Made by a program: the position numbers and the translations under genes. Positions 5,615-44,495 of a DNA stretch of 64,000 bases are shown here, piece after piece (position 1 is the first letter of the stretch; each line of letters opens with the position of its first letter). Location: positions 806,001 through 870,000 of the forward strand of contig NZ_JAKEVY010000002.1 of the NCBI RefSeq assembly GCF_021491375.1, given 5' to 3'. This DNA is from Flavihumibacter fluminis (GTDB lineage: Bacteria; Bacteroidota; Bacteroidia; Chitinophagales; Chitinophagaceae). The notes under the pieces were generated by a model. The model was given only the letters and a program-made list of their open reading frames with translations, made no database searches and was not told the origin of the DNA.

Positions 5615-6814
5615 ATGAAAAAAATCAGCATCACCCTATTGATCCTTAGCTGGGTACTTGCTGGATTCTCGCAAACTGCCTACAATGCCAGTTTTGCAGA
5701 TTACCAGCGAAACTTTCCCCGCCTCCATGATATCCTTCGCAAAAAAGAAGACAGTCTTCGTCGACAGTTTATGGAAAAGGGATTGTCCTGGCCAGCCAAA
5801 TATATTTACCTGCGTTCCTTCAAATATGACAGCCAGCTCGAAGTATGGGTTAAAAACGATAAAAAAGAACCTTTCCAGCTGTTTAAAACCTACAAGGTTT
5901 GTGCCATGGCAGGCACATTAGGCCCCAAACGGATGGAGGGTGATTACCAGGTACCAGAAGGATTCTATTACATCAATGAATTTAATCCACGCAGTGTTTA
6001 CCATTTATCGCTGGGCTTAAATTATCCCAACGCATCGGATCGCTACCTGAGTGATGCCATTCAGCCAGGTGGAGACATCTATATTCATGGCAGTTGTGTT
6101 ACTACAGGTTGTATCCCGATTACCGATTCCCAGATCGAAGAGTTGTATGCACTGGCTACTTATGCCAAATCATCCGGGCAGGACTTCATTCCGGTTCATA
6201 TATTCCCAGTACGCTTCAATGTAAAAAAGAGTGCAGATTATTTGGGCAGATATGTGCGTGATTTTGCAGATTATGCTCATCTCGCCAACAGTTTGAAGGA
6301 AGTGTTTTATTATTTCGAAAAACACAAACAATTGCCGCTGATCATGGTGAATAACCGTGGCAGTTATGTGCTGGATGAAGAAGTGAGAAATGCCTTACCC
6401 AGTGCTGAAAAAAAGGTACTGCCTCCGCCAGTGGTTAAAAAGAAACGCAAGCTTACCGAATTTGATGAATCAGAAATTCCCACTACCGTTCATAAATTAC
6501 CGGAGTTTCCCGGTGGTTCGGATGCCTTCCGGCAATACCTAAGGGATTTGAATAAAAAACTGGGCCCCTATCTTAACGATGACCAGCATACTGCGTATGT
6601 ATTGGTGGAATTCATCGTAACTGCAAAAGGCAAGGTTTTAAACCCACGCATCATCCGTGGTGGCAATGATTTGCTCAATGAACACCTGCTGGATGCCCTT
6701 GAAGAAATGTCCGATTGGTTACCTGCGGTCCGCGAAGGTAAATCGGTACCAATGAAACTGAAGCAGACAATCGTAATTGAAAATAAGTTGCCAGGGGTAC
6801 AGGTTGGAAGCTAA
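5615..6814 (+). CDS. exported L,D-transpeptidase (YafK-like) with C-terminal TonB-like domain
   Basis: 399 residues with an N-terminal signal peptide (MKKISITLLILSWVLAGFSQ). The central part resembles YkuD/YafK L,D-transpeptidases: HGSCVTTGCIPIT supplies the conserved His158 and the probable catalytic Cys166, with GxxxxP-like strands before it. These enzymes act on peptidoglycan stem peptides, or release and attach cross-linked lipoproteins. Residues of about 290-395 (LPEFPGGSDAFRQYL to the end) look like the TonB C-terminal domain common in Bacteroidota, with the typical GKVLNPRII.GG strand. I infer a periplasmic cell-wall enzyme whose TonB-like tail could contact a partner protein. Directly downstream lies a seven-base purine-rich repeat array. 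Confidence 0.8.
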   Translation: MKKISITLLILSWVLAGFSQTAYNASFADYQRNFPRLHDILRKKEDSLRRQFMEKGLSWPAKYIYLRSFKYDSQLEVWVKNDKKEPFQLFKTYKVCAMAGTLGPKRMEGDYQVPEGFYYINEFNPRSVYHLSLGLNYPNASDRYLSDAIQPGGDIYIHGSCVTTGCIPITDSQIEELYALATYAKSSGQDFIPVHIFPVRFNVKKSADYLGRYVRDFADYAHLANSLKEVFYYFEKHKQLPLIMVNNRGSYVLDEEVRNALPSAEKKVLPPPVVKKKRKLTEFDESEIPTTVHKLPEFPGGSDAFRQYLRDLNKKLGPYLNDDQHTAYVLVEFIVTAKGKVLNPRIIRGGNDLLNEHLLDALEEMSDWLPAVREGKSVPMKLKQTIVIENKLPGVQVGS

Positions 6815-6870
6815 TGGAAGTGTGAAGTATGAAGTGAGAACTTAGAAGTAAGAATTTAGAAGTGTGATTG
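6815..6870 (+). repeat. seven-base-period purine-rich array after the transpeptidase gene
   Basis: Starting at 6818 the plus strand reads as seven consecutive heptads (GAAGTGT, GAAGTAT, GAAGTGA, GAACTTA, GAAGTAA, GAATTTA, GAAGTGT). It begins right after the stop codon of the upstream gene, in sense orientation. Relatives occur at 7404-7500, 10397-10439, 23262-23300, 23868-23945 and 43955-44065. Confidence 0.8.
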
Positions 6871-6899
6871 GGGATAATCTAATTTGAATAGTCCATTTG

Positions 6900-7403
6900 A
6901 TGGCAAAAGGGGTGCGGCAGCTATTACCGGAATTGGTTTGGGGCATACTTTCTATCTTATTGACCTTTCTACTAACCAGAATCTTAATCGGTAGTTTTGT
7001 TTTTGCGGGTACAATAGATATCCACTTGCATGATACTTATTATGTAGTTCAAAGATGGCTATTGCTGATGCCTTTGTTTTTTTTCACTACTTTTTCATTA
7101 TTTATCATCAAAACAAGCATCCGGAAATTTTCTTCCACTTATAATTATTGGATACTATTAACTTCCGGAATTTTCCTGGTGTGGTCATTAGGTTTCCTCA
7201 TAAATAAACTATCACAGGTTGCAACAACAGGTTGGTCCGTATATCCGCCGTTAACTGAATCTGGACAGCAACATTTTCCAGTTCCGCAACCAGACCCAAT
7301 ATCCCAAACCCTAACCAATTTTTTGCTACTGGTTCAGCTGCTGATTCTGATCACAACTGTATTCTTTGCGTACCGACTTGGTACATCCGCTCAAAAACAA
7401 TAA
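6900..7403 (+). CDS. small membrane protein with cytochrome oxidase subunit I-like motifs
   Basis: 167 residues from the ATG at 6900; a TTG three bases upstream is less likely. Four predicted membrane helices lie at about residues 11-36, 53-72, 83-102 and 138-160. Between helices 1 and 2 is IDIHLHDTYYVV (39-50), almost identical to the helix X entry of haem-copper oxidase subunit I. Between helices 3 and 4 is GWSVYPPL (111-118), matching GWTVYPPL after helix III of the same subunit. The two haem-ligand histidines that follow HDTYYVVA in real oxidases are replaced (QRWL), and the motifs appear in the reverse order. It therefore cannot be an oxidase. Function unknown. Confidence 0.75.
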   Translation: MAKGVRQLLPELVWGILSILLTFLLTRILIGSFVFAGTIDIHLHDTYYVVQRWLLLMPLFFFTTFSLFIIKTSIRKFSSTYNYWILLTSGIFLVWSLGFLINKLSQVATTGWSVYPPLTESGQQHFPVPQPDPISQTLTNFLLLVQLLILITTVFFAYRLGTSAQKQ

Positions 7404-7500
7404 AAGATTGTCTCCCGTTTCCTTTGTCTCCATTCTTCCTTTGCTCCATTCCTCCACTCCTCCATCTTCCATTCCTCCATTCTCACGTCTCACGTCTCAC
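7404..7500 (-). repeat. purine-rich short-period array at 3' end of aspartate kinase
   Basis: On the minus strand the sequence runs GAAGTGA, GACGTGA, GACGTGA, GAATGGA and then looser 7-8-base GGAATGGA-like units. It begins inside the last codons of the aspartate kinase gene (Arg-Ser-Glu-Thr-stop is written by the repeat) and extends to the convergent gene end at 7403. Confidence 0.75.
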
Positions 7501-8761
7501 TTCTAAAAAGCCCCTGCACTGTCTCTGTTGTTTCCTGTTTCAGTACCAATTTTTTTCCGGCACTTAGTTTTTCGAAAAGCTCTGGTATAAAGTGACGTAT
7601 GGTAAGCAGCGACAACCCTTTTTCTACGGTAACTTCAAACTGGCCCGCTGCTGAATGTGCCAGTTCATCCATTTTTTCCGGGTTATCATCCAGCACGCAG
7701 GTAAAACTGATGGCTCCATTCTGTGTCATATTGGGCCGAAGCGATAAATGAGCAAATGTTTGATACAACTGTGCAACGGGTTGTTCTCCAACAAAGGAGA
7801 AATCTTTTGATTTAAATTGAAGGAGTACCTGATTTTCTTTCCATACAATGATGGGTGGCAGATCTTTCACCGGCTTGTTGTGAATGAGGGTGCCAGGCAA
7901 ACTGGTATCAAGAAAACACTTTACCTGTAACGGGATACTTTTGTTCTGAAGCGGCTTGATGGTTTTCGGGTGTATTACCTGGGCTCCATAATAGGCCATT
8001 TCAATTACTTCCGTATAATTTAGAGTGGAGATGAGTTGTGCATCCGGAAAGCATTTGGGATCTGCATTCATTACACCTGCAACATCTTTCCAAATGGTTT
8101 GTGCACTGGCATCCAGCAGGTTTGCGAATACAGCAGCACTATAGTCACTTCCTTCCCGACCAAGGGTGGTGCTTTCGTTTTCATCCGTTGAGCCAATGAA
8201 TCCCTGCGTAAGTACAATGCTGGTTTTACTGAACAAGGGATTAACCACCTGATTAACTTTAAGAGCACTGTATTCCCAATCGATATTTGCATCACGGAAA
8301 TTGTCATCCGTGCGAAGTACATCTCTCACATCCAGCCATTGGTTAAGAATGCCGGCTTCATTCAGAAAGGCGCTGACAATAGCCGTAGAGAGCAGTTCGC
8401 CAATACAAACAATCTGATCGTAATAGTAATCGAATGATTGCACCGGCTGATCATGCAGCAGCCATTCCACTTCTGTAAAAAAATTCGTAAGCTGTTCTTC
8501 ACAGGCAGCATATCCGGTATTTAGTAAATCACCGGCCGTTTGCAGGTGTTGCTGCTTTATTTCCTGAAATAATTGCAGGGCGGCATCTCTATTGACATCA
8601 TAAAATGCATGGGCTACCTTTTCCAGGGCATTGGTGGTTTTACCCATTGCAGAAATAACTACCAAAAGTTGCTGATCCCTGAATTGATGAAAAATAGGGA
8701 CCAGGGCACGGATTCGTTCAGTGGTACTGACACTGGCTCCCCCGAATTTAAATACCTGCAT
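7490..8761 (-). CDS. aspartate kinase (monofunctional)
   Basis: Phosphorylates aspartate in the first step of lysine, threonine, methionine and diaminopimelate synthesis. From the ATG at 8761 it has 423 residues. MQVFKFGGASVSTTERI is the amino-acid-kinase KFGGxSV start, and TTLGREGSDYSAAVFANLL is the aspartate-binding signature. A regulatory, ACT-like C-terminal half follows. A longer frame to 8782 begins at a TTG that is part of the TATCTTTG promoter box, so it cannot be used by that transcript. No homoserine dehydrogenase fusion is present. The C-terminal residues RSET are encoded by the repeat array. Confidence 0.93.
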   Translation of the reverse strand: MQVFKFGGASVSTTERIRALVPIFHQFRDQQLLVVISAMGKTTNALEKVAHAFYDVNRDAALQLFQEIKQQHLQTAGDLLNTGYAACEEQLTNFFTEVEWLLHDQPVQSFDYYYDQIVCIGELLSTAIVSAFLNEAGILNQWLDVRDVLRTDDNFRDANIDWEYSALKVNQVVNPLFSKTSIVLTQGFIGSTDENESTTLGREGSDYSAAVFANLLDASAQTIWKDVAGVMNADPKCFPDAQLISTLNYTEVIEMAYYGAQVIHPKTIKPLQNKSIPLQVKCFLDTSLPGTLIHNKPVKDLPPIIVWKENQVLLQFKSKDFSFVGEQPVAQLYQTFAHLSLRPNMTQNGAISFTCVLDDNPEKMDELAHSAAGQFEVTVEKGLSLLTIRHFIPELFEKLSAGKKLVLKQETTETVQGLFRSET

Positions 8762-9895: not shown

Positions 9896-10396
9896 ATGGT
9901 GAAATCTGTTATCCGGATCTTTTTCCTCTTTTTGATTGCCGTAGGCATTTCCTGCAAAACAAATCCCGGTATTAAAACTGAAAAGACAGGTGGCGGCGCT
10001 ACCGCAACAGTTTCAGCAAGTTCTCTTGAGCAGGATATTCTTAAGGAAGTAAATGATTACCGGAAGAAAAAAGGTTTGCCTGCTTTGAAGGCGAATTCGG
10101 TAATCGCAACAGAAGCGAGTGTGCACAGCCAGGCGATGGCGCGCAAGCAGGTAGCATTCGGCCATGGTGGTTATGGGGCGAGGGTAAAACGAATCAGCCA
10201 GCGCCTGGAAGGAATCGTAGGATCTGCAGAAAATGTGGCGGTAGGAAACATGAGTGCAGCAGAAGTAGTGAAAAGATGGATCAATAGTCCGACACACCGG
10301 AAAAATATTGAAGGTCCCTACAACCTGACCGGCATCGGTGTTTCAAAAGACGTTACGGGTCGCTTCTACTATACCCAACTTTTCATCCGTAAATAA
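9896..10396 (+). CDS. CAP/SCP-domain lipoprotein
   Basis: 166 residues. The N terminus MVKSVIRIFFLFLIAVGISC is a lipoprotein signal with the lipidated Cys at position 20. A CAP (SCP/PR1-like, YkwD-type) domain follows from about residue 45: LEQDILKEVNDYRKKKGLP, then the cavity residues His in FGHGG, Glu in AENVAVG and His in SPTHRKNI. Such bacterial proteins are extracytoplasmic; their biochemical role is mostly unproven. It follows fbp by 37 bases and may be transcribed from the TATCTTTA box. Confidence 0.88.
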   Translation: MVKSVIRIFFLFLIAVGISCKTNPGIKTEKTGGGATATVSASSLEQDILKEVNDYRKKKGLPALKANSVIATEASVHSQAMARKQVAFGHGGYGARVKRISQRLEGIVGSAENVAVGNMSAAEVVKRWINSPTHRKNIEGPYNLTGIGVSKDVTGRFYYTQLFIRK

Positions 10397-10439
10397 TTCC
10401 CACTTCATAAATCATACTTCATAATTCACACTTCATATC
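10397..10439 (-). repeat. heptad repeat array, antisense to its neighbours
   Basis: Read on the minus strand the sequence is GAAGTGT, GAATTAT, GAAGTAT, GATTTAT, GAAGTGG. It is the same family as the array at 6815 but here it is antisense to both flanking genes. Confidence 0.7.
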
Positions 10440-10958
10440 ATGCGTTATCCTATCGGTCATTTCGAGCCAGTGCCTTATTCTGAAAAAAAATTTCAGGAAT
10501 GGATTACTGATATTAAATATCTCCCGCAACTACTGGAAAATGCTGTTCTGAATCTGGATGCAGCTCAATTACATACACCCTACCGGGAAGGAGGATGGAC
10601 TCTTCACCAGGTGGTACACCATGTAGCCGATAGTCATATGAATGCAATCATCCGGTTTAAGCTGGCCTTAACGGAAGAGCAACCAACTATTAAACCTTAC
10701 GATGAAGAAGCCTGGGCCAAATTGCCGGATGTGGAAGCACTGCCGGTGAATATATCACTTACACTCCTGCATGCGCTTCACAGTCGCTGGTATGAACTGA
10801 TAAAGGGATTAGACGAAACAACCCTGATGAATCGATCAGTCATACACCCCGAACATGGTAAGGTGATGAATTGCTGGCATCTATTGGGTATGTATAGCTG
10901 GCACGGCCGGCACCATGTGGCACATATTACCAGTCTTAGGGAAAGAATGGGCTGGTAG
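10440..10958 (+). CDS. YfiT/BstA-type DinB-fold metal-dependent protein
   Basis: 172 residues matching the YfiT family (bacillithiol S-transferase BstA-like, DinB four-helix fold). MRYPIGHFEPV, GGWTLHQVVHHVADSHMNA and IKPYDEEAW are family signatures. The metal ligands are the His residues of HHVADSH and of SWHGRHHVAH near the C terminus. In firmicutes it conjugates bacillithiol to electrophiles; many Bacteroidota also carry it, so a thiol-transfer detoxification role is inferred. The ATG follows a heptad-repeat spacer. The last residues overlap an alternative frame of the NUDIX gene, which I start later. Confidence 0.88.
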   Translation: MRYPIGHFEPVPYSEKKFQEWITDIKYLPQLLENAVLNLDAAQLHTPYREGGWTLHQVVHHVADSHMNAIIRFKLALTEEQPTIKPYDEEAWAKLPDVEALPVNISLTLLHALHSRWYELIKGLDETTLMNRSVIHPEHGKVMNCWHLLGMYSWHGRHHVAHITSLRERMGW

Positions 10959-22117: not shown

Positions 22118-23275
22118 ATGAACCGAAAACTTCGAATGGGAATGATTGGTGGTGGAAATGATGCCTTTATTGGTGCCATCCATCGCCTGGCTGCCAATAT
22201 GGATGGAAAGATTGAACTCGTTTGCGGAGCCCTTAGTATCAATAAGGACATCGCAATTGAGAGTGGAAAAACACTTTTTTTAGCACCGGAGCGCACGTAT
22301 ACCAGTTATGATGAAATGCTGGAAAAGGAAGCCGCTTTACCGGAAGATGTGCGCATGGATTTTGTAACCATCGTGACTCCCAATTTTGCGCATTTCGCAC
22401 CAGCCATGATGGCCCTTGAGAAGGGTTTCCATGTGGTGATTGAAAAGCCGATTACGTTGTCTCTGCAAGAAGCGATTGCACTGGATCAGAAAGTAAAGGA
22501 AACCGGACTCGTTCTTTGCCTGACGCATACCTACACCGGTTATCCGATGGTGAAGGAAGCCCGCAATTTGATTCAAAGCGGAAAAATAGGAAAGGTTCGT
22601 AAAGTTTTTGTAGAGTACCGCCAGGGCTGGCTTAGCCGTTTATCTGAGCGCGAAGGCAATGCAGGGGCAGCCTGGAGAACCGATTCGAAAAAATCAGGTA
22701 AGAGTGGGGTGATGGGCGATATTGGCACCCATGCCTTCAACCTGGCAGAATATATCAGCGGCCTGGAAGTAGCAGAGCTTTGCGCCAATCTGAATGTGGT
22801 GGTGGAAAACCGGGCCCTGGATGATGATGGTGCTGTATTGCTTAAGTTTAATTCCGGAGCCAGTGGTGTGTTGATAGCCACCCAGGTAGCAGCAGGAGAG
22901 GAGAATAATTTATCTATCCGCATTTACGGAGAATTGGGTGGTATCGAATGGCACCAGCAGGAACCGAATTCACTGCTGCTGAAATGGTACGACAAACCCA
23001 TGGAAACGCTGCGTGCGGGATCTGGATACTTGAGTGATATAGGTCGTCATAACTGTCGCACTCCGGGTGGCCACCCTGAAGGATACCTGGAAGCGTTCGC
23101 TAACATCTACCGTAATTTTTCACTGACATTGGCAGCAAGAATCAATGGTACTACCGTAAACGCTGATGTGGTGGAATTCCCTTCAGTAAAAGAAGGCATT
23201 CGTGGTATGGCCTTTATTGAAAATGTAGTAAAGAGCAATGAGAGTAGTGAGAAGTGGGTCAAATATGAAGTGTGA
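22118..23275 (+). CDS. Gfo/Idh/MocA-family oxidoreductase
   Basis: NAD(P)-dependent sugar or inositol dehydrogenase-like enzyme of 385 residues. The Rossmann start is RMGMIGGGNDAFIGAIHR, the EKP motif is FHVVIEKPITLSL, and the C-terminal alpha/beta domain contains GDIGTHAFNLAEYISG, where the conserved Asp and His of the active site sit. This subtype, with GGHPEGYLEAFANIYRNF, is widespread in Bacteroidota sugar catabolism; the substrate is unknown. The last two codons and stop (Glu-Val-stop) lie within a heptad repeat, and a hairpin terminator follows. Confidence 0.9.
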   Translation: MNRKLRMGMIGGGNDAFIGAIHRLAANMDGKIELVCGALSINKDIAIESGKTLFLAPERTYTSYDEMLEKEAALPEDVRMDFVTIVTPNFAHFAPAMMALEKGFHVVIEKPITLSLQEAIALDQKVKETGLVLCLTHTYTGYPMVKEARNLIQSGKIGKVRKVFVEYRQGWLSRLSEREGNAGAAWRTDSKKSGKSGVMGDIGTHAFNLAEYISGLEVAELCANLNVVVENRALDDDGAVLLKFNSGASGVLIATQVAAGEENNLSIRIYGELGGIEWHQQEPNSLLLKWYDKPMETLRAGSGYLSDIGRHNCRTPGGHPEGYLEAFANIYRNFSLTLAARINGTTVNADVVEFPSVKEGIRGMAFIENVVKSNESSEKWVKYEV

Positions 23276-23300
23276 AGTATGAATTATGAAGTTAGAATTG
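23262..23300 (+). repeat. heptad array spanning the stop codon of the Gfo/Idh/MocA gene
   Basis: GAAGTGT, GAAGTAT, GAATTAT, GAAGTTA, GAATTGG in sense orientation; the TGA stop is inside the first unit. Confidence 0.75.
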
Positions 23301-23329
23301 GGGTCACTGGGAACAGTGACTCCAATTTT
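23297..23329. terminator. bidirectional terminator between convergent genes
   Basis: 13-bp stem ATTGGGGTCACTG / CAGTGACTCCAAT (one G-U pair) with a GGAA tetraloop, followed by TTTA. It lies between the Gfo/Idh/MocA gene and the convergent membrane-protein gene that ends at 23334. Confidence 0.85.
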
Positions 23330-23333
23330 AAAT

Positions 23334-23837
23334 TCAGGAAAAGTTCTGTAGAAGCGCTTCCTCTTTTGCTTTTCTCCAGTTCTTGTCGATCCAGTAGATC
23401 AGTGCAAACGCGATAAGGTTCAGGTTCACTTCCAGCCGCTCATAATGCCTGTTAATATTGATATCAACTTTTGAAATACCTGCACCAAATCCAAGTTGTA
23501 TGGAGTCCGTGAGATCTATTCCAATCGTGAGGTACAATCCTGCTGCATATTGAAATCCAAAACCAAGAATAGCAAAGCCGATGACCTGCATAATCTGGTT
23601 GATCATGGAATGCCGGAAGGCCTTTTTATTTATTTTTAAACAAAGCCATCCTGCATAAACAGAATACCCAAAAAACAAAAAGACGATTGTAAACAAGAGT
23701 ATCATTGAAAAATTAATGGAACCACCATTAATCATAGTCCACCCAATTAATAAAAATCCAATTAGTCCGCCTGCAACCTGATACAGTCCTAGTTTTGTTA
23801 ACGCAGATATAGTTTCTTCCGATGAAAAGTTATTCAT
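23334..23837 (-). CDS. membrane protein of unknown function
   Basis: 167 residues with about four hydrophobic segments (about 17-35, 42-67, 82-106 and 138-150). The segment between them, DSIQLGFGAGISKVDININRHYERLEVNLN, is amphipathic. I do not recognise a family. It stands alone, converging on the Gfo/Idh/MocA gene; the next minus-strand gene starts 97 bases downstream of a repeat-filled spacer, so its own promoter is unclear. Confidence 0.6.
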   Translation of the reverse strand: MNNFSSEETISALTKLGLYQVAGGLIGFLLIGWTMINGGSINFSMILLFTIVFLFFGYSVYAGWLCLKINKKAFRHSMINQIMQVIGFAILGFGFQYAAGLYLTIGIDLTDSIQLGFGAGISKVDININRHYERLEVNLNLIAFALIYWIDKNWRKAKEEALLQNFS

Positions 23838-23867
23838 AGTGTAGATTTATTTCAGGAGCTATATTTT

Positions 23868-23945
23868 TCCCGTCTCCCGCCTCCCGTCTCCCGTCTCCAT
23901 TCTCCCTTTCTTCCTTTCCTCCATTTTCCATTCCTCACTTCTGAC
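23868..23945 (-). repeat. heptad/octad purine-rich array at the 3' end of rfaE2
   Basis: On the minus strand it begins in the last rfaE2 codons (AGAAGTGAGG, with the TGA stop inside), continues with GGAATGGA-like units and ends in four near-perfect heptads GACGGGA, GACGGGA, GGCGGGA, GACGGGA. Confidence 0.75.
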
Positions 23946-24429
23946 TTATTCTCCTTACAATACTCGTGGTTGAATAACCTTCCACAATCGGGTTAATTAT
24001 CACCTGGCCGCCGTTTTCAATTACTTCGCGGTGACCTACCACTTGTTCTACCCGGTAATCGCCCCCTTTTACGAGCACATCCGGCATGATGGAAAGGATC
24101 AGGTCGTAGGGAGTATCTTCATCAAATACCACCACCGCATCTACCATGATCATCGAAGCAATCAGCAGGGCCCTGGATTCCTGATCGTTAATTGGGCGCT
24201 CGGGACCTTTATTCAGACGCTTGACGGAAGCATCGCTGTTGATGCCTACAATCAGGATATCAGCCTCCTGTGCGGCCTGCGTGAGCGAATATATATGACC
24301 GTGATGCACGATGTCGAATACGCCATTGGTAAAGGCAATACGTTTACCAAGAAATTTCCAAACTGCTACCTGGCGGATCAGGGCATCGCGCCCGTACACT
24401 TTCTGATGAATGATACTGGCATTTCGCAT
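23935..24429 (-). CDS. rfaE2: D-glycero-beta-D-manno-heptose 1-phosphate adenylyltransferase
   Basis: Nucleotidyltransferase activating heptose 1-phosphate to ADP-heptose for lipopolysaccharide core. It has 164 residues. FTNGVFDIVHHGHIYSL contains the HxGH-like motif, GINSDASVKRLNKGPERPI follows, and PDVLVKGGDY and IVEGYSTTSIVRRI close the domain. It equals the C-terminal half of E. coli HldE, so the kinase half must be separate. Last gene of the panC-panD-flippase-rfaE2 run, 7 bases after the flippase gene. Confidence 0.93.
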   Translation of the reverse strand: MRNASIIHQKVYGRDALIRQVAVWKFLGKRIAFTNGVFDIVHHGHIYSLTQAAQEADILIVGINSDASVKRLNKGPERPINDQESRALLIASMIMVDAVVVFDEDTPYDLILSIMPDVLVKGGDYRVEQVVGHREVIENGGQVIINPIVEGYSTTSIVRRISQK

Positions 24430-40316: not shown

Positions 40317-40320
40317 CCTC

Positions 40321-40345
40321 ACCCGGCCGGTGCCACCGGTCGGGT
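40321..40345 (+). terminator. GC-rich hairpin after trhO
   Basis: 11-bp stem ACCCGGCCGGT / ACCGGTCGGGT with one G-U pair and a GCC loop, five bases after the trhO stop. A U-run is lacking (AAAAT follows), so termination may be weak or factor-dependent. The remaining ~100 bases before the kinase gene show no clear promoter. Confidence 0.6.
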
Positions 40346-40450
40346 AAAATGATCAGGCATAAATCTGGTAGAATCGAAAATTCGTAGGTACAATACAAGC
40401 GATTGATTATCGTTTTATAACCTGTGTAAGACCGAATAAACCGCCGTGCC

Positions 40451-41788: not shown

Positions 41789-41790
41789 TT

Positions 41791-41848
41791 TCACTCCGCC
41801 CTTTGGTGGATACCACCCGGACCATCACCAACGACCAAGGCGGAGTGA
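41791..41848. repeat. long hairpin with 10-bp perfect arms between kinase gene and mutS2
   Basis: Arms TCACTCCGCC (41791-41800) and GGCGGAGTGA (41839-41848) enclose 38 bases that contain a second stem GGTGG-ATA-CCACC (41805-41817). It begins two bases after the kinase stop and ends 10 bases before the mutS2 promoter box. It may be a terminator or an RNA processing site; there is no U-run. Confidence 0.6.
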
Positions 41849-41858
41849 GGGAAATCGT

Positions 41859-41866
41859 TAACTTTG
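41859..41866 (+). promoter_or_regulatory. mutS2: -7 box TAACTTTG before mutS2
   Basis: Perfect TAnnTTTG six bases before the ATG at 41873. It predicts a leader of at most a few bases. It also rules out a TTG start at 41864, which lies in the box. Confidence 0.6.
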
Positions 41867-41872
41867 CGGCCT

Positions 41873-43987
41873 ATGAAATTGTTCCCGGAGTCGGCGATTG
41901 TACAGCTGGAGTTTGATAAAATCAGGACCCTTTTAGAAGCGCATTGTAAAACTGAATATGCCCGCCTGAAAGCGCAGGACCTTCGCATCCATACCAGGTT
42001 ATCTTATATTGAAACAGAACTGCGTCAGACGCATGAATATCGGGGTTTATTGCAGCATGCGGTGTATTTTCCCAATGAGTTTATCGCCAATCTTTCCAAG
42101 GAGTTAAAACTGCTGGGAATCCCGGGCGCGGTCTTATCCGGAGAGCAGTTTGTTCAGGTAAGAAAACTGGCTGAGAATATGGAGCGACTCTTTCGCTGGT
42201 TTGACAACGAACGCAGAGAAACCTATCCCGGTTTAACCCAGGTAATTGAAAACAGTTATTACGAAAAGTCCATACAGGTTGCCATTAATGAGGTGCTGGA
42301 TGAAAATGGCAATGTGCTGGATAATGCCTCCGAGGAATTGAGAAGGATCAGGATCAGCCTGTACAAAAAGCGAAACGATCTGCGAAGAGTTTTTGAACGC
42401 ATCATTCAGAAACTGAATAAGCAGGGATATCTCGCAGACATCGAAGAATCATTCCTGAATGGCAGAAGAGTAGTGGCAGTATTCGCCGAACAGAAACGAT
42501 TGATCAAAGGAATCCTTCACGGCGAGAGTGATACCAGGAAAACAGCCTTCATTGAACCGGAAGAAACCATCGAGCTGAACAATGAAGTTTATTCCCTGGA
42601 AAATGAAGAAAGCAGGGAAGTATACCGTATTCTACGCAGCCTGACCGCGCAGTTATCATCACATGCACCGTTGCTGAATACCTATCTGCAGATCTGTGGT
42701 GAATTTGATTTTATCCGTTCCAAAGCAAGGTTTGCGCAGGATTATAACGGAGAGTACCCGGTAGTATTGGACAAAGCGCATATTCACCTGGTAAATGCGT
42801 ACCATCCGCTGTTATATCTCTATAATAAACGCGCGGAAAAACCAACCATTCCGGTAACACTGACCCTGGATGATAAAAACCGGATACTCGTAATCAGTGG
42901 TCCCAATGCCGGAGGGAAAACGGTAACCATGAAAACGGTTGGCCTAACCCAGATGATGGTGCAGGCCGGATTGCTGGTACCGGTGCATCCTTCCTCGGTT
43001 TTTGGCATCTTCAAGCAACTCATGATTCATATCGGAGATACACAAAGCCTCGAATTTGAATTGAGTACTTATAGTTCGCACCTCAAAAACATGAAACATT
43101 TTATGGAGGTGGCGAATGGTAAAACCTTGTTCTTTATTGATGAACTGGGAAGTGGATCGGATCCTAACCTGGGAGGAGCTTTTGCTGAGGTGATCATGGA
43201 AGAACTTGCGCGTAAGCATGCCATGGGAATAGTAACCACGCACTACCTGAATCTGAAAGTAATGGCGAATAAAACGCCAGGTATTATCAATGGTGCGATG
43301 GCATTCGACGAGGAGAACCTGTTACCCATGTATAAACTTATCATTGGCAAGCCGGGCTCTTCCTATACCTTTTCAATTGCACAACGAATAGGGCTGGATA
43401 AGCGATTGATCGACCGGGCCCGGAGTATGGTGGATGAAGATCATTTCCGACTGGACAAATTGCTAAACAGAACTGAACAGGATCTGCGGGAGCTGGAAAA
43501 AAAGGAAAAGGAACTCAACAAACTGCTGCGTGAAAATGAAAAGCTGAAAAAGGAGATGGAGCAGGTGATGGATAAGGAAAAACATCGCCAGCAGGTGGAA
43601 TTACTGAAGCAGCAGAATAAGATCACCGAAGACCGGATCGCGTACCTTAAAGACATGGAGCGTAAGATCAAACAGATCTTGCTGGAATGGAAAAAAACAG
43701 AAAACAAGGAGAAAGTAATGAAGGAAATGTTCTCCCTGCTATTTAAGAAAGACGACCAGAAGGTAGTCAACAAACTTCAGAAAAAAATTGAATCCAAATT
43801 TGATGAAATCGCTGGTGAAATTGCTGTTGGCAGCAAGGTTAAAATGAAACGCAATCACCAGGTTGGAGAGGTAATTGAGCTCCGCGGTAAACGCGCGGTG
43901 GTAAAAATAGGTCTCTTACCCATGCAGGTAGACCTGAAGGACCTGGTGATGGTGAGGGAGAAGGAAGTGAAAGAACGTGAAAAGTGA
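41873..43987 (+). CDS. mutS2: MutS2-family ATPase lacking the Smr nuclease domain
   Basis: 704 residues from the ATG at 41873. It has MutS III-like lever helices (1-310), then the ATPase with Walker A ISGPNAGGKTVTMKTVG, the Q-loop region MIHIGDTQSLEFELSTYSSH, Walker B TLFFIDELGSGSDP and TTHYLNLK. A long coiled coil at about 540-610 (QDLRELEKKEKELNKLL) and a KOW/SH3-like domain (GSKVKMKRNHQVGEVIELRG) follow. MutS2 usually ends in an Smr domain of about 75 residues; here it is absent, and the tail VREKEVKEREK is encoded by a heptad repeat. Likely acts on branched DNA or on collided ribosomes, without the usual nuclease. Confidence 0.9.
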   Translation: MKLFPESAIVQLEFDKIRTLLEAHCKTEYARLKAQDLRIHTRLSYIETELRQTHEYRGLLQHAVYFPNEFIANLSKELKLLGIPGAVLSGEQFVQVRKLAENMERLFRWFDNERRETYPGLTQVIENSYYEKSIQVAINEVLDENGNVLDNASEELRRIRISLYKKRNDLRRVFERIIQKLNKQGYLADIEESFLNGRRVVAVFAEQKRLIKGILHGESDTRKTAFIEPEETIELNNEVYSLENEESREVYRILRSLTAQLSSHAPLLNTYLQICGEFDFIRSKARFAQDYNGEYPVVLDKAHIHLVNAYHPLLYLYNKRAEKPTIPVTLTLDDKNRILVISGPNAGGKTVTMKTVGLTQMMVQAGLLVPVHPSSVFGIFKQLMIHIGDTQSLEFELSTYSSHLKNMKHFMEVANGKTLFFIDELGSGSDPNLGGAFAEVIMEELARKHAMGIVTTHYLNLKVMANKTPGIINGAMAFDEENLLPMYKLIIGKPGSSYTFSIAQRIGLDKRLIDRARSMVDEDHFRLDKLLNRTEQDLRELEKKEKELNKLLRENEKLKKEMEQVMDKEKHRQQVELLKQQNKITEDRIAYLKDMERKIKQILLEWKKTENKEKVMKEMFSLLFKKDDQKVVNKLQKKIESKFDEIAGEIAVGSKVKMKRNHQVGEVIELRGKRAVVKIGLLPMQVDLKDLVMVREKEVKEREK

Positions 43988-44065
43988 AAGGTGAATATTC
44001 CTATTTCACTTTTCACCTTTCACTTTTCACTATTTTTCACGTCTGACGTTTCACCTTTCACGTTT
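43955..44065. repeat. facing heptad arrays between convergent mutS2 and CBS genes
   Basis: On the plus strand GTGAAAA, GTGAAAG, GTGAATA units start inside the last mutS2 codons. On the minus strand GTGAAAG, GTGAAAC, GTCAGAC and four more GTGAAAN units start right after the CBS-gene stop. Because the two face each other, a perfect 19-bp inverted repeat results (43977-43995 and 44012-44030), which could also terminate transcription both ways. Confidence 0.8.
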
Positions 44066-44495
44066 ACGAGTGTATATAAGATTGCAAATGCGAAATTGTT
44101 TCTTCCTGGTTAGCAATCACCGCTTTGATCACGTCGTTAACGGATATGATGCCAACTAAATAATTGTTATTGAATACCGGCAGGTAGCGGATATTATTGG
44201 CAGACATTAACTGCATACACTCCTCTATGGTGCTATCCGGACTAATACGCGGCAATTCAGTAGACATAATATCATGCACACGGGTATCTGTGGAGGATTT
44301 GCCTTTCAGGATTACTTTACGCGCATAATCACGCTCGGTAAGAATTCCATTATACTGACCATCGGAATCAATCACCAGGATAGATCCAATGTTGTGATCG
44401 CTCATGATCTTGAGCGCATCGAGTACGGTAGTGTTGGGAACCACACTAACCAGGTGCCTGTTCTTTCGGGCGAGGATGTCTGCTACTTTTTTCAT
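44064..44495 (-). CDS. tandem CBS-domain protein
   Basis: 143 residues made of two CBS repeats: VVPNTTVLDALKIMSDHNIGSILVIDSDGQYNGILTERD-like region at about 20-60, and ISPDSTIEECMQLMSANNIRYLPVF at about 84-125. The pair forms one Bateman module that typically binds adenine nucleotides. No enzymatic domain is attached, so it may sense energy charge or regulate a partner. It stands alone, convergent to mutS2 and divergent from the GH63-like gene. Confidence 0.9.
   Translation of the reverse strand: MKKVADILARKNRHLVSVVPNTTVLDALKIMSDHNIGSILVIDSDGQYNGILTERDYARKVILKGKSSTDTRVHDIMSTELPRISPDSTIEECMQLMSANNIRYLPVFNNNYLVGIISVNDVIKAVIANQEETISHLQSYIHS

Follow-up and report, generated by a model that had tools for sequence, protein, structure and literature searches.

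A survey of bacterial genomes is reported to have found heptameric repeats to be, in most of them, the commonest kind of longer simple repeat (Mrazek 2007, as cited in PMC4679880). The Xanthomonas and Nostoc heptamers, GGGAATC and GGGGA(C/T)T, recur with a period of 7, and within each unit some positions are conserved and others vary (Rehm et al. 2015, PMC4692102, which also cites the Calothrix heptamers). In that report, two Xanthomonas genomes carry 186 and 183 heptamer sets, which are intergenic, most often four units long, closer to the 5' ORF (on average 28 versus 160 nt), found in inverted pairs and few between divergent ORFs; between aligned ORFs no clear sense or antisense bias was seen (30% and 35% in Xcc), 83% of the sites are common to two species with varying length and sequence, and the repeats are discussed as G-quadruplexes. 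TAACTGA direct repeats occur in marine Beggiatoaceae, Cyanobacteria and five Bacteroidetes, and consist of one near-fixed heptad, which in the Orange Guaymas genome is located mostly directly upstream of start codons (MacGregor 2015, PMC4679880). Neither of these reports settles the cause of heptameric repeats.

The arrays of Flavihumibacter fluminis described here share with the Xanthomonas and Nostoc heptamers the period of 7, the conserved and variable positions, the inverted pairs and the scarcity in divergent spacers. The four-unit mode is shared by the main unit type (T1) and not by the second (T2), and the proximity to the 5' ORF is found in F. fluminis, less clearly in two other genomes (see below). 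They differ in phylum, in the heptads used, in the missing G-tract of the main unit, in being enriched between convergent genes, and in a turnover which was measured against ordinary spacer and includes switches of block type. Since the anatomy corresponds closely, with G-tracts and preference for convergent spacers as the exceptions, the arrays were classed among the heptameric repeats; since T1 has no G-tract and yet has the same four-unit length, placement and inverted pairs, G-quadruplex formation is not a general cause. Like the TAACTGA repeats, they are intergenic heptads, patchy over phyla, with stop codons on one strand; unlike them, they consist of other, degenerate units and mostly abut stop codons.

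Cyanobacterial short tandemly repeated repetitive sequences (STRR), the name used for heptamers such as those of Calothrix, are likewise heptanucleotide arrays, with other sequences. REP and BIME elements, which go with RAYT (Y1) transposases, are dispersed, extragenic and often in inverted pairs, and are not known to have a period of 7. Dispersal, extragenic site and inverted pairs are alike; the period of 7 and an F. fluminis genome free of Y1_Tnp matches are the differences.

The first-pass annotation of this DNA knew of no name for the family. Heptameric repeats with the same placement rule, and the TAACTGA repeats, had in fact been published; among the matches listed in searches of an open-licence library, no description of arrays of this sort in Chitinophagaceae was found. 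The permanence of the slots in these soil bacteria, combined with the rewriting of their letters, makes the puzzle of the bacterial seven-base repeats testable, and close species with the same slots and different contents, next to an array-free sister species, offer a way to watch the repeats change and to seek the gene responsible.

Heptameric arrays in the window, the genome and other bacteria

The window is the whole 64-kb stretch analysed, positions 806001-870000 of contig C21 of the 4.71-Mb genome of F. fluminis (G000). Islands were scored by lag-7 self-match over 28 positions, with a cut-off of at least 19. Exactly six were found, at 6813-6867, 7468-7510, 10394-10440, 23255-23303, 23859-23917 and 43994-44066. 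Their top scores were 20-24, compared with maxima of 16-20 in 20 first-order Markov windows; five of the six exceeded every shuffle, and 10394-10440 (score 20) tied with the highest. All six arrays listed in the first-pass annotation were recovered and are the only strong period-7 islands of the window by this score. The extent of one, given as 7404-7500, holds for 7468-7510 only, the stretch 7408-7467 beside it being pyrimidine-rich with a period of 8/16. The several heptad types distinguished there were found by eye to follow a single register, approximately [GA]A-N-K-K-N-N, and GTGAAAN and GAAGTGN are overlapping rotations of GT[GC]A[AG]AN. An Rfam search of the window gave no match at gathering score.

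Three strict patterns were used: T1, GT[GC]A[AG]AN; T2, GAA[GT]TNN; and T3, RGGARRY. The arrays of the window are collected in Table 1.

Table 1. Heptameric arrays of the 64-kb window and the genes beside them.
Array	Position	Strand	Context
T2 (GAAGTNN), seven units	6817..6866	+	begins 2 nt past stop of YkuD/TonB_C-like gene 5615-6814; purine strand sense
T1 (GTGAGAC-type, then GAATGGA-like units)	7468..7510	-	purine strand sense to amino-acid-kinase gene 7490-8761(-)
T2, tandem spacer, antisense class	10395..10439	-	purine 5' end abuts start codon of gene 10440-10958
T2	23255..23303	+	overlaps stop of GFO/IDH/MocA gene 22136-23275; stop codon within array
T3 (GACGGGA, GGCGGGA)	23859..23917	-	behind cytidylyltransferase-like gene 23935-24429(-)
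T1, short arm	43977..43989	+	at stop of MutS-domain-V/MSSS gene 41873-43987
T1, two blocks with 10-nt step GTGAAAAATAGTGAAA between	43994..44066	-	behind CBS-domain gene 44064-44495(-); inverted to 43977-43989

The called stop of the amino-acid-kinase gene falls within its array. Three further features of the window region were recorded. Two of the arrays enclose an ORF of 168 aa (6897-7403) that matches nothing in Pfam; the orthologous spacer of G010 is ~380 bp shorter and lacks most of the ORF, and an array is retained there. A second kind of dispersed repeat, made of the palindromic units CACCGGTCGGGTG / CACCCGACCGGTG, occupies tandem spacers at 40317-40450, 41789-41872 and C21:84258-84373, and its copy number differs among G000, G001, G010 and G009. 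In G009 (C6, ~781925-783664) the array-bearing spacer orthologous to 23275-23935 contains an insertion of ~1.7 kb, the visible start of which resembles, by eye, an insertion-sequence transposase.

Beyond the window, 1.2 Mb of F. fluminis sequence was analysed, giving with the window a sample of 1.26 Mb of the 4.71 Mb. Self-match islands numbered 30, 18, 10 and 4 at lags 7, 14, 21 and 28, and 0-5 at all other lags between 2 and 30; a Markov shuffle of the sample gave none. Period 7, with its multiples, is thus the period which stands out. The strict patterns matched 84 times (67 T1, 10 T2 and 7 T3) and never in the reversed control; the arrays of the window belong to a genome-wide family in a Flavihumibacter clade. 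Extrapolation from the 67 arrays in the sample gives ~250 arrays per genome. A three-unit T1 pattern, searched in the entire genome, gave 345 and 331 matches on the two strands, and 0 and 0 in the reversed control.

T1 runs of 2, 3, 4, 5 and 6 exact units occurred 10, 4, 38, 8 and 8 times, and longer ones 9 times; four units, the commonest length, therefore account for 38 of the 77 runs of two or more. Reversed sequence contained seven T1 runs of two units and none longer. T2 runs of 2, 3, 4 and 5 units occurred 19, 3, 1 and 6 times, with no four-unit mode, and the reversed control gave 11 runs of two. In arrays with at least three units (n=67), the first was most often GTGAGAC (29) and the second GTCAGAC (21), and the last was GTGAGAA (25) or GTGAAAA (17). 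Long words common to several loci showed no excess over a unit-Markov null, which argues against a recent single burst. The arrays constitute a new family of degenerate heptameric repeats, built of ~32-nt blocks of four GT[GC]A[AG]AN units, with GAAGTNN and GACGGGA variants, and occupying fixed slots at gene edges.

In the genus, G000, G001, G009, G010 and G012 have hundreds of pattern matches, and the other ten of the 15 genomes searched have 0-3. G008, one of these ten, is about as close to G000 as G009 is, by protein and by DNA identity. In a sample of the Chitinophagaceae drawn from a larger group, the three-unit pattern matched in 68 of 195 genomes, in most of them only a few times. G041, G039, G034 and G018 had 77-486 matches, compared with 0-1 in G135, G130 and G117, which belong to the genera of G041, G034 and G018; G000 had the most of all genomes searched. 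The 20-mer GTGAGACGTCAGACGTGAGA was searched in the genome collection and matched 55 stretches. Six of these belong to MAGs which carry the labels Verrucomicrobiota (2), Phycisphaerales, KSB1, Deferrisomatales and Synergistaceae, with labels and binning as deposited. More heptads flank the match in five of these six.

Slots and their contents in related species

Comparison of 507 paired spacers of G000 and G001, with a mean flank identity of 91.9%, identified arrays (strict pattern) in both genomes in 28 cases, in G000 only in 3, in G001 only in 1 and in neither in 475; hence 28 of the 31 array sites of G000 are also present in G001. Three of the four discordant spacers retain period-7 sequence in the genome failing the strict pattern. 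The only clean presence/absence difference among the 32 array spacers is C21:269805, a 31-nt stretch flanked by a GAAG direct repeat. In comparison with G010 (216 spacers), G009 (87) and G008 (8), the array sites in common were 8, 4 and 0, and those not in common 1, 3 and 1. Array-free slots were clean at C32:268074 in G009 and at window position 10396 in G008, where the orthologous spacer is 9-10 bp long; the C32:182227 slot in G009 is short and merely pyrimidine-rich. For comparison, a length difference of at least 20 bp between G000 and G001 was seen in 17 of 262 spacers without arrays. Since ~94% of the ordinary spacers are stable too, selection cannot be concluded from the persistence of the slots alone.

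The contents of the slots behaved differently. The array at 6817..6866 has a near-identical copy in G001 and GAATTAT-type units in its place in G010, and the slot of 43994..44066 is occupied in both relatives by different units. Unit turnover relative to G001 was measured over 34 matched T1 runs (152 units). The variable positions 3, 5 and 7 differed at a rate of 0.307, the core positions 1, 2, 4 and 6 at 0.038, and array-free spacers at 0.070 (262 spacers, those over 600 bp being excluded from the alignment). Eight runs with more than 35% mismatch were omitted, so that turnover is, if anything, underestimated. The contrast was smaller for G010 (variable 0.215, core 0.081, spacer 0.101; 8 runs, 4 omitted); for G009 the variable positions differed at 0.606 and the core at 0.045 (4 runs, 5 omitted). 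Conservation of the core does not prove selection: only runs with an intact core in G000 entered the comparison, and after such a choice neutral mutation along a single branch would yield a rate of about 0.038.

Orthologous arms, defined as strict arrays on the same strand in G000 and G001 (n=37), were assigned to the classes A (GTGAGAN), B (GTGAAAN) and T2. The class was unchanged in 23, switched in 11 and involved a mixed class in 3; the switches are sometimes partial, as at C11:63204, which is counted among the 11 at 0.93 identity. Six arms were identical over the compared stretch. Eight, namely both arms of C21:289146, C11:57551, C11:255219 and C32:137561, had an identity of 0.70-0.78, the level of random pairs (0.784), between flanks 93-96% identical. 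The mean identity of orthologous arms was 0.893, above that of random pairs, so that replacement is frequent but incomplete. In the nine two-armed spacers both arms changed in 4, one in 2 and none in 3, a sample too small to establish replacement of both arms as a rule. The slots are thus common to the species while the units inside them are replaced, in some slots by a switch of the whole block type, and this replacement is much faster than point mutation permits.

We infer that template switching between arrays, together with slippage, renews the units and that location is filtered by harm, no specific function being needed; we see about an even chance that this account is correct. The ~250 arrays of one genome would serve one another as templates that match in part. 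DNA synthesis during replication or repair, on entering an array, would switch to another array as template and copy its units in, or slip by one or two units. Core positions would persist, as all templates share them, and positions 3, 5 and 7 would change, as the templates differ there. A and B blocks are only ~70-78% identical, and RecA-type conversion is expected to need a higher identity than this.

Placement relative to genes

Gene positions were obtained with our own ORF caller, without annotation, by which some window genes were missed or shortened. The 84 strict matches formed 72 blocks, of which 2 (both T3) were inside called genes, 1 was at the edge of a stretch and 69 could be placed. 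Of the spacers of at least 20 bp, 65 were convergent, 454 tandem and 181 divergent, and arrays were present in 17, 32 and 3 of them, respectively: convergent spacers were enriched compared with the rest (17/65 vs 35/635, p=7e-7) and divergent ones depleted compared with tandem (p=0.006). When short spacers were included, the counts were 18/185, 33/746 and 3/186 (p=0.002 for convergent, 0.09 for divergent). The 5' end of the purine strand was the end closer to a gene in 61 of 69 blocks, 46/48 for sense and 15/21 for antisense arrays (p=0.08 for the latter alone). In 2-kb pieces with rough ORF ends, the same rule was not clear in G041 (7/14) and weak in G018 (7/10).

Sense arrays had a median distance to the stop of -1 nt in convergent and +1 nt in tandem spacers, and the stop codon lay within the array for 23 of the 44 genes with a sense array at most 60 nt away, 21 of the 23 being TGA. 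In 10 of the 16 tandem antisense arrays the purine 5' end was within 23 nt of the start codon it abuts; a tRNA-Trp gene has an array directly against its 5' end. The first-pass annotation was therefore right in having arrays begin directly at stop codons and concentrate at gene 3' ends; they also favour convergent spacers and are seldom found in genes or between divergent genes. Its sense-strand rule is weak in general, since tandem spacers, the informative class, gave a sense to antisense ratio of 23:16 (p=0.34). The count of five sense arrays out of six in the window is partly automatic, because between convergent genes either orientation is sense to one gene; the array at 10397-10439 is of the antisense class.

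The filter that we infer beside template switching would let arrays survive wherever nothing is broken. Tolerated sites would be those immediately behind a stop codon in arrays with a sense purine strand, in which TGA, TAA or TAG within T1 and T2 units closes every frame, and those between convergent genes; genes and shared promoter regions would be excluded. Template switching combined with this filter would account for the turnover and for arrays keeping clear of genes and promoters. It leaves unexplained the four-unit mode, the first- and last-unit grammar, why the number is seven, and the polarity at start codons.

The same placement could be due to an mRNA 3'-end element, in which purine-rich RNA would serve to mark or protect the ends of genes, selection keeping it in position; in a variant of this reading the pyrimidine-rich complement would be the Rho-loading strand against antisense transcription. 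Convergent enrichment, divergent depletion, the start of arrays at stops and the slots common to relatives are in agreement with it. We consider it rather unlikely all the same, given the tandem ratio of 23:16, the ordinary persistence of the slots, the changeable unit type, and the lack of arrays in the sister species G008 and in the larger part of the genus. The terminator role put forward in the first-pass annotation was not borne out either: with a simple detector, terminator-like hairpins within 220 nt were as common with arrays as without (8/34 array genes vs 53/283 others, p=0.49), and by eye hairpins had arrays ahead of them, behind them or on both sides. The idea that arrays replace or coincide with intrinsic terminators was rejected on the same frequencies.

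Other explanations for the origin of the arrays

Replication slippage was also raised in the first-pass annotation; in plain form, starting from a heptad planted at the ends of genes, it may be one part of the process and is unlikely as its sole cause. The spacer at window position 10396, with 43 bp in G000 and 57, 29 and 51 bp in G001, G010 and G009, includes lengths stepping by 14 (29/43/57 bp); 7 of the 25 non-zero length differences of array spacers relative to G001 are multiples of 7; and units two apart were identical more often than in within-array shuffles (51/192 vs 33.5 expected). Against it, adjacent units were identical less often than in these shuffles (37/259 vs 46.1, P=0.03), T1 run lengths peak at four rather than declining, and the same unit vocabulary is found in other genera. 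Slippage alone is insufficient because whole blocks change type in some slots, importing another unit class.

Similarly improbable is an active rewriting system, that is, an enzyme or repair pathway which re-synthesises four-heptad blocks at fixed slots from a genome-wide vocabulary and is gained or lost between close species. If it were true, it would account for positions that stay while contents turn over, for blocks of four units with a polarity away from gene edges and for the patchiness, and it could be a common cause of the heptameric repeats of Bacteroidota, Xanthomonas and cyanobacteria.

A non-autonomous mobile element of MITE, REP or BIME type with heptad arms appears slightly less probable still. 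In predicted folds, half of the array or more was paired with the 80 nt that follow it; this held for 15 of 16 arrays in G041, 10 of 11 in G018, 17 of 23 at other named loci, 10 of 21 in G001 and 16 of 40 in G000 (a sample of 40); L118 and L252 form near-perfect predicted hairpins of ~30 bp. The empty site at C21:269805 also suits such an element; its GAAG flank is equally compatible with a deletion between repeats. The complementarity of inverted arms, beyond the shared heptad, showed no excess over random pairs in G000, G001 and G010 (10, 6 and 3 pairs; p=0.41, 0.46 and 0.66), and hardly any position changed relative to G001, C21:269805 being the single clean difference in 32 array spacers.

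Two candidate partner families were profiled, RVT_1 and Y1_Tnp. RVT_1 had no match in G000, G001, G010, G012, G041, G034 and G039, and was present in the carriers G009 and G018 and in array-free G002, G008, G011, G135 and G117; a retron, DGR or other reverse-transcriptase product was rejected, there being no match in G000. Y1_Tnp genes occur in G041, G018, G034 and G039 (2-4 each), which would suit a mobile element, but there was no match in G000, the genome with most array matches, nor in G010 and G012 (55% complete). G001 had one match below the cut-off and G009 one barely above it, and array-free G135 and G117 had 9 and 5. A REP/RAYT partner was rejected on the absence from G000 and the presence in these two. 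One exact 20-mer searched in viral contigs gave no match. The mobile-element remnant suggested in the first-pass annotation was not supported by these comparisons.

Tandem binding sites for a sequence-specific protein would fit the kept core GT.A.A., the four-unit mode and a patchy presence following the binding protein. One slot, however, holds GTGAGAC-, GTGAAAG- or GAAGTNN/GAATTAT-type units depending on the species, which one protein would hardly accept, and this makes the reading very unlikely. G-quadruplex elements, as discussed for the Xanthomonas and Nostoc heptamers, with which placement, inverted pairs and four-unit mode are shared, are scarcely credible here: T1 units and their joints have no GGG, which refutes the idea for T1 from the sequence itself, GGG arises in T2 solely where the two free positions are GG, and a G-tract in each unit is found only in the rarer T3 (GACGGGA).

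Two side observations concern heptads in other genomes. In the Synergistaceae-labelled MAG with locus L116 (5650-5760), a heptad block lies inside a 76-bp unit with at least two tandem occurrences. In G100, a genome of the family sample, the reversed control pattern matched 155 and 123 times compared with 13 and 0 for the forward pattern, which suggests another heptad family, ARASTGN, in its genus.
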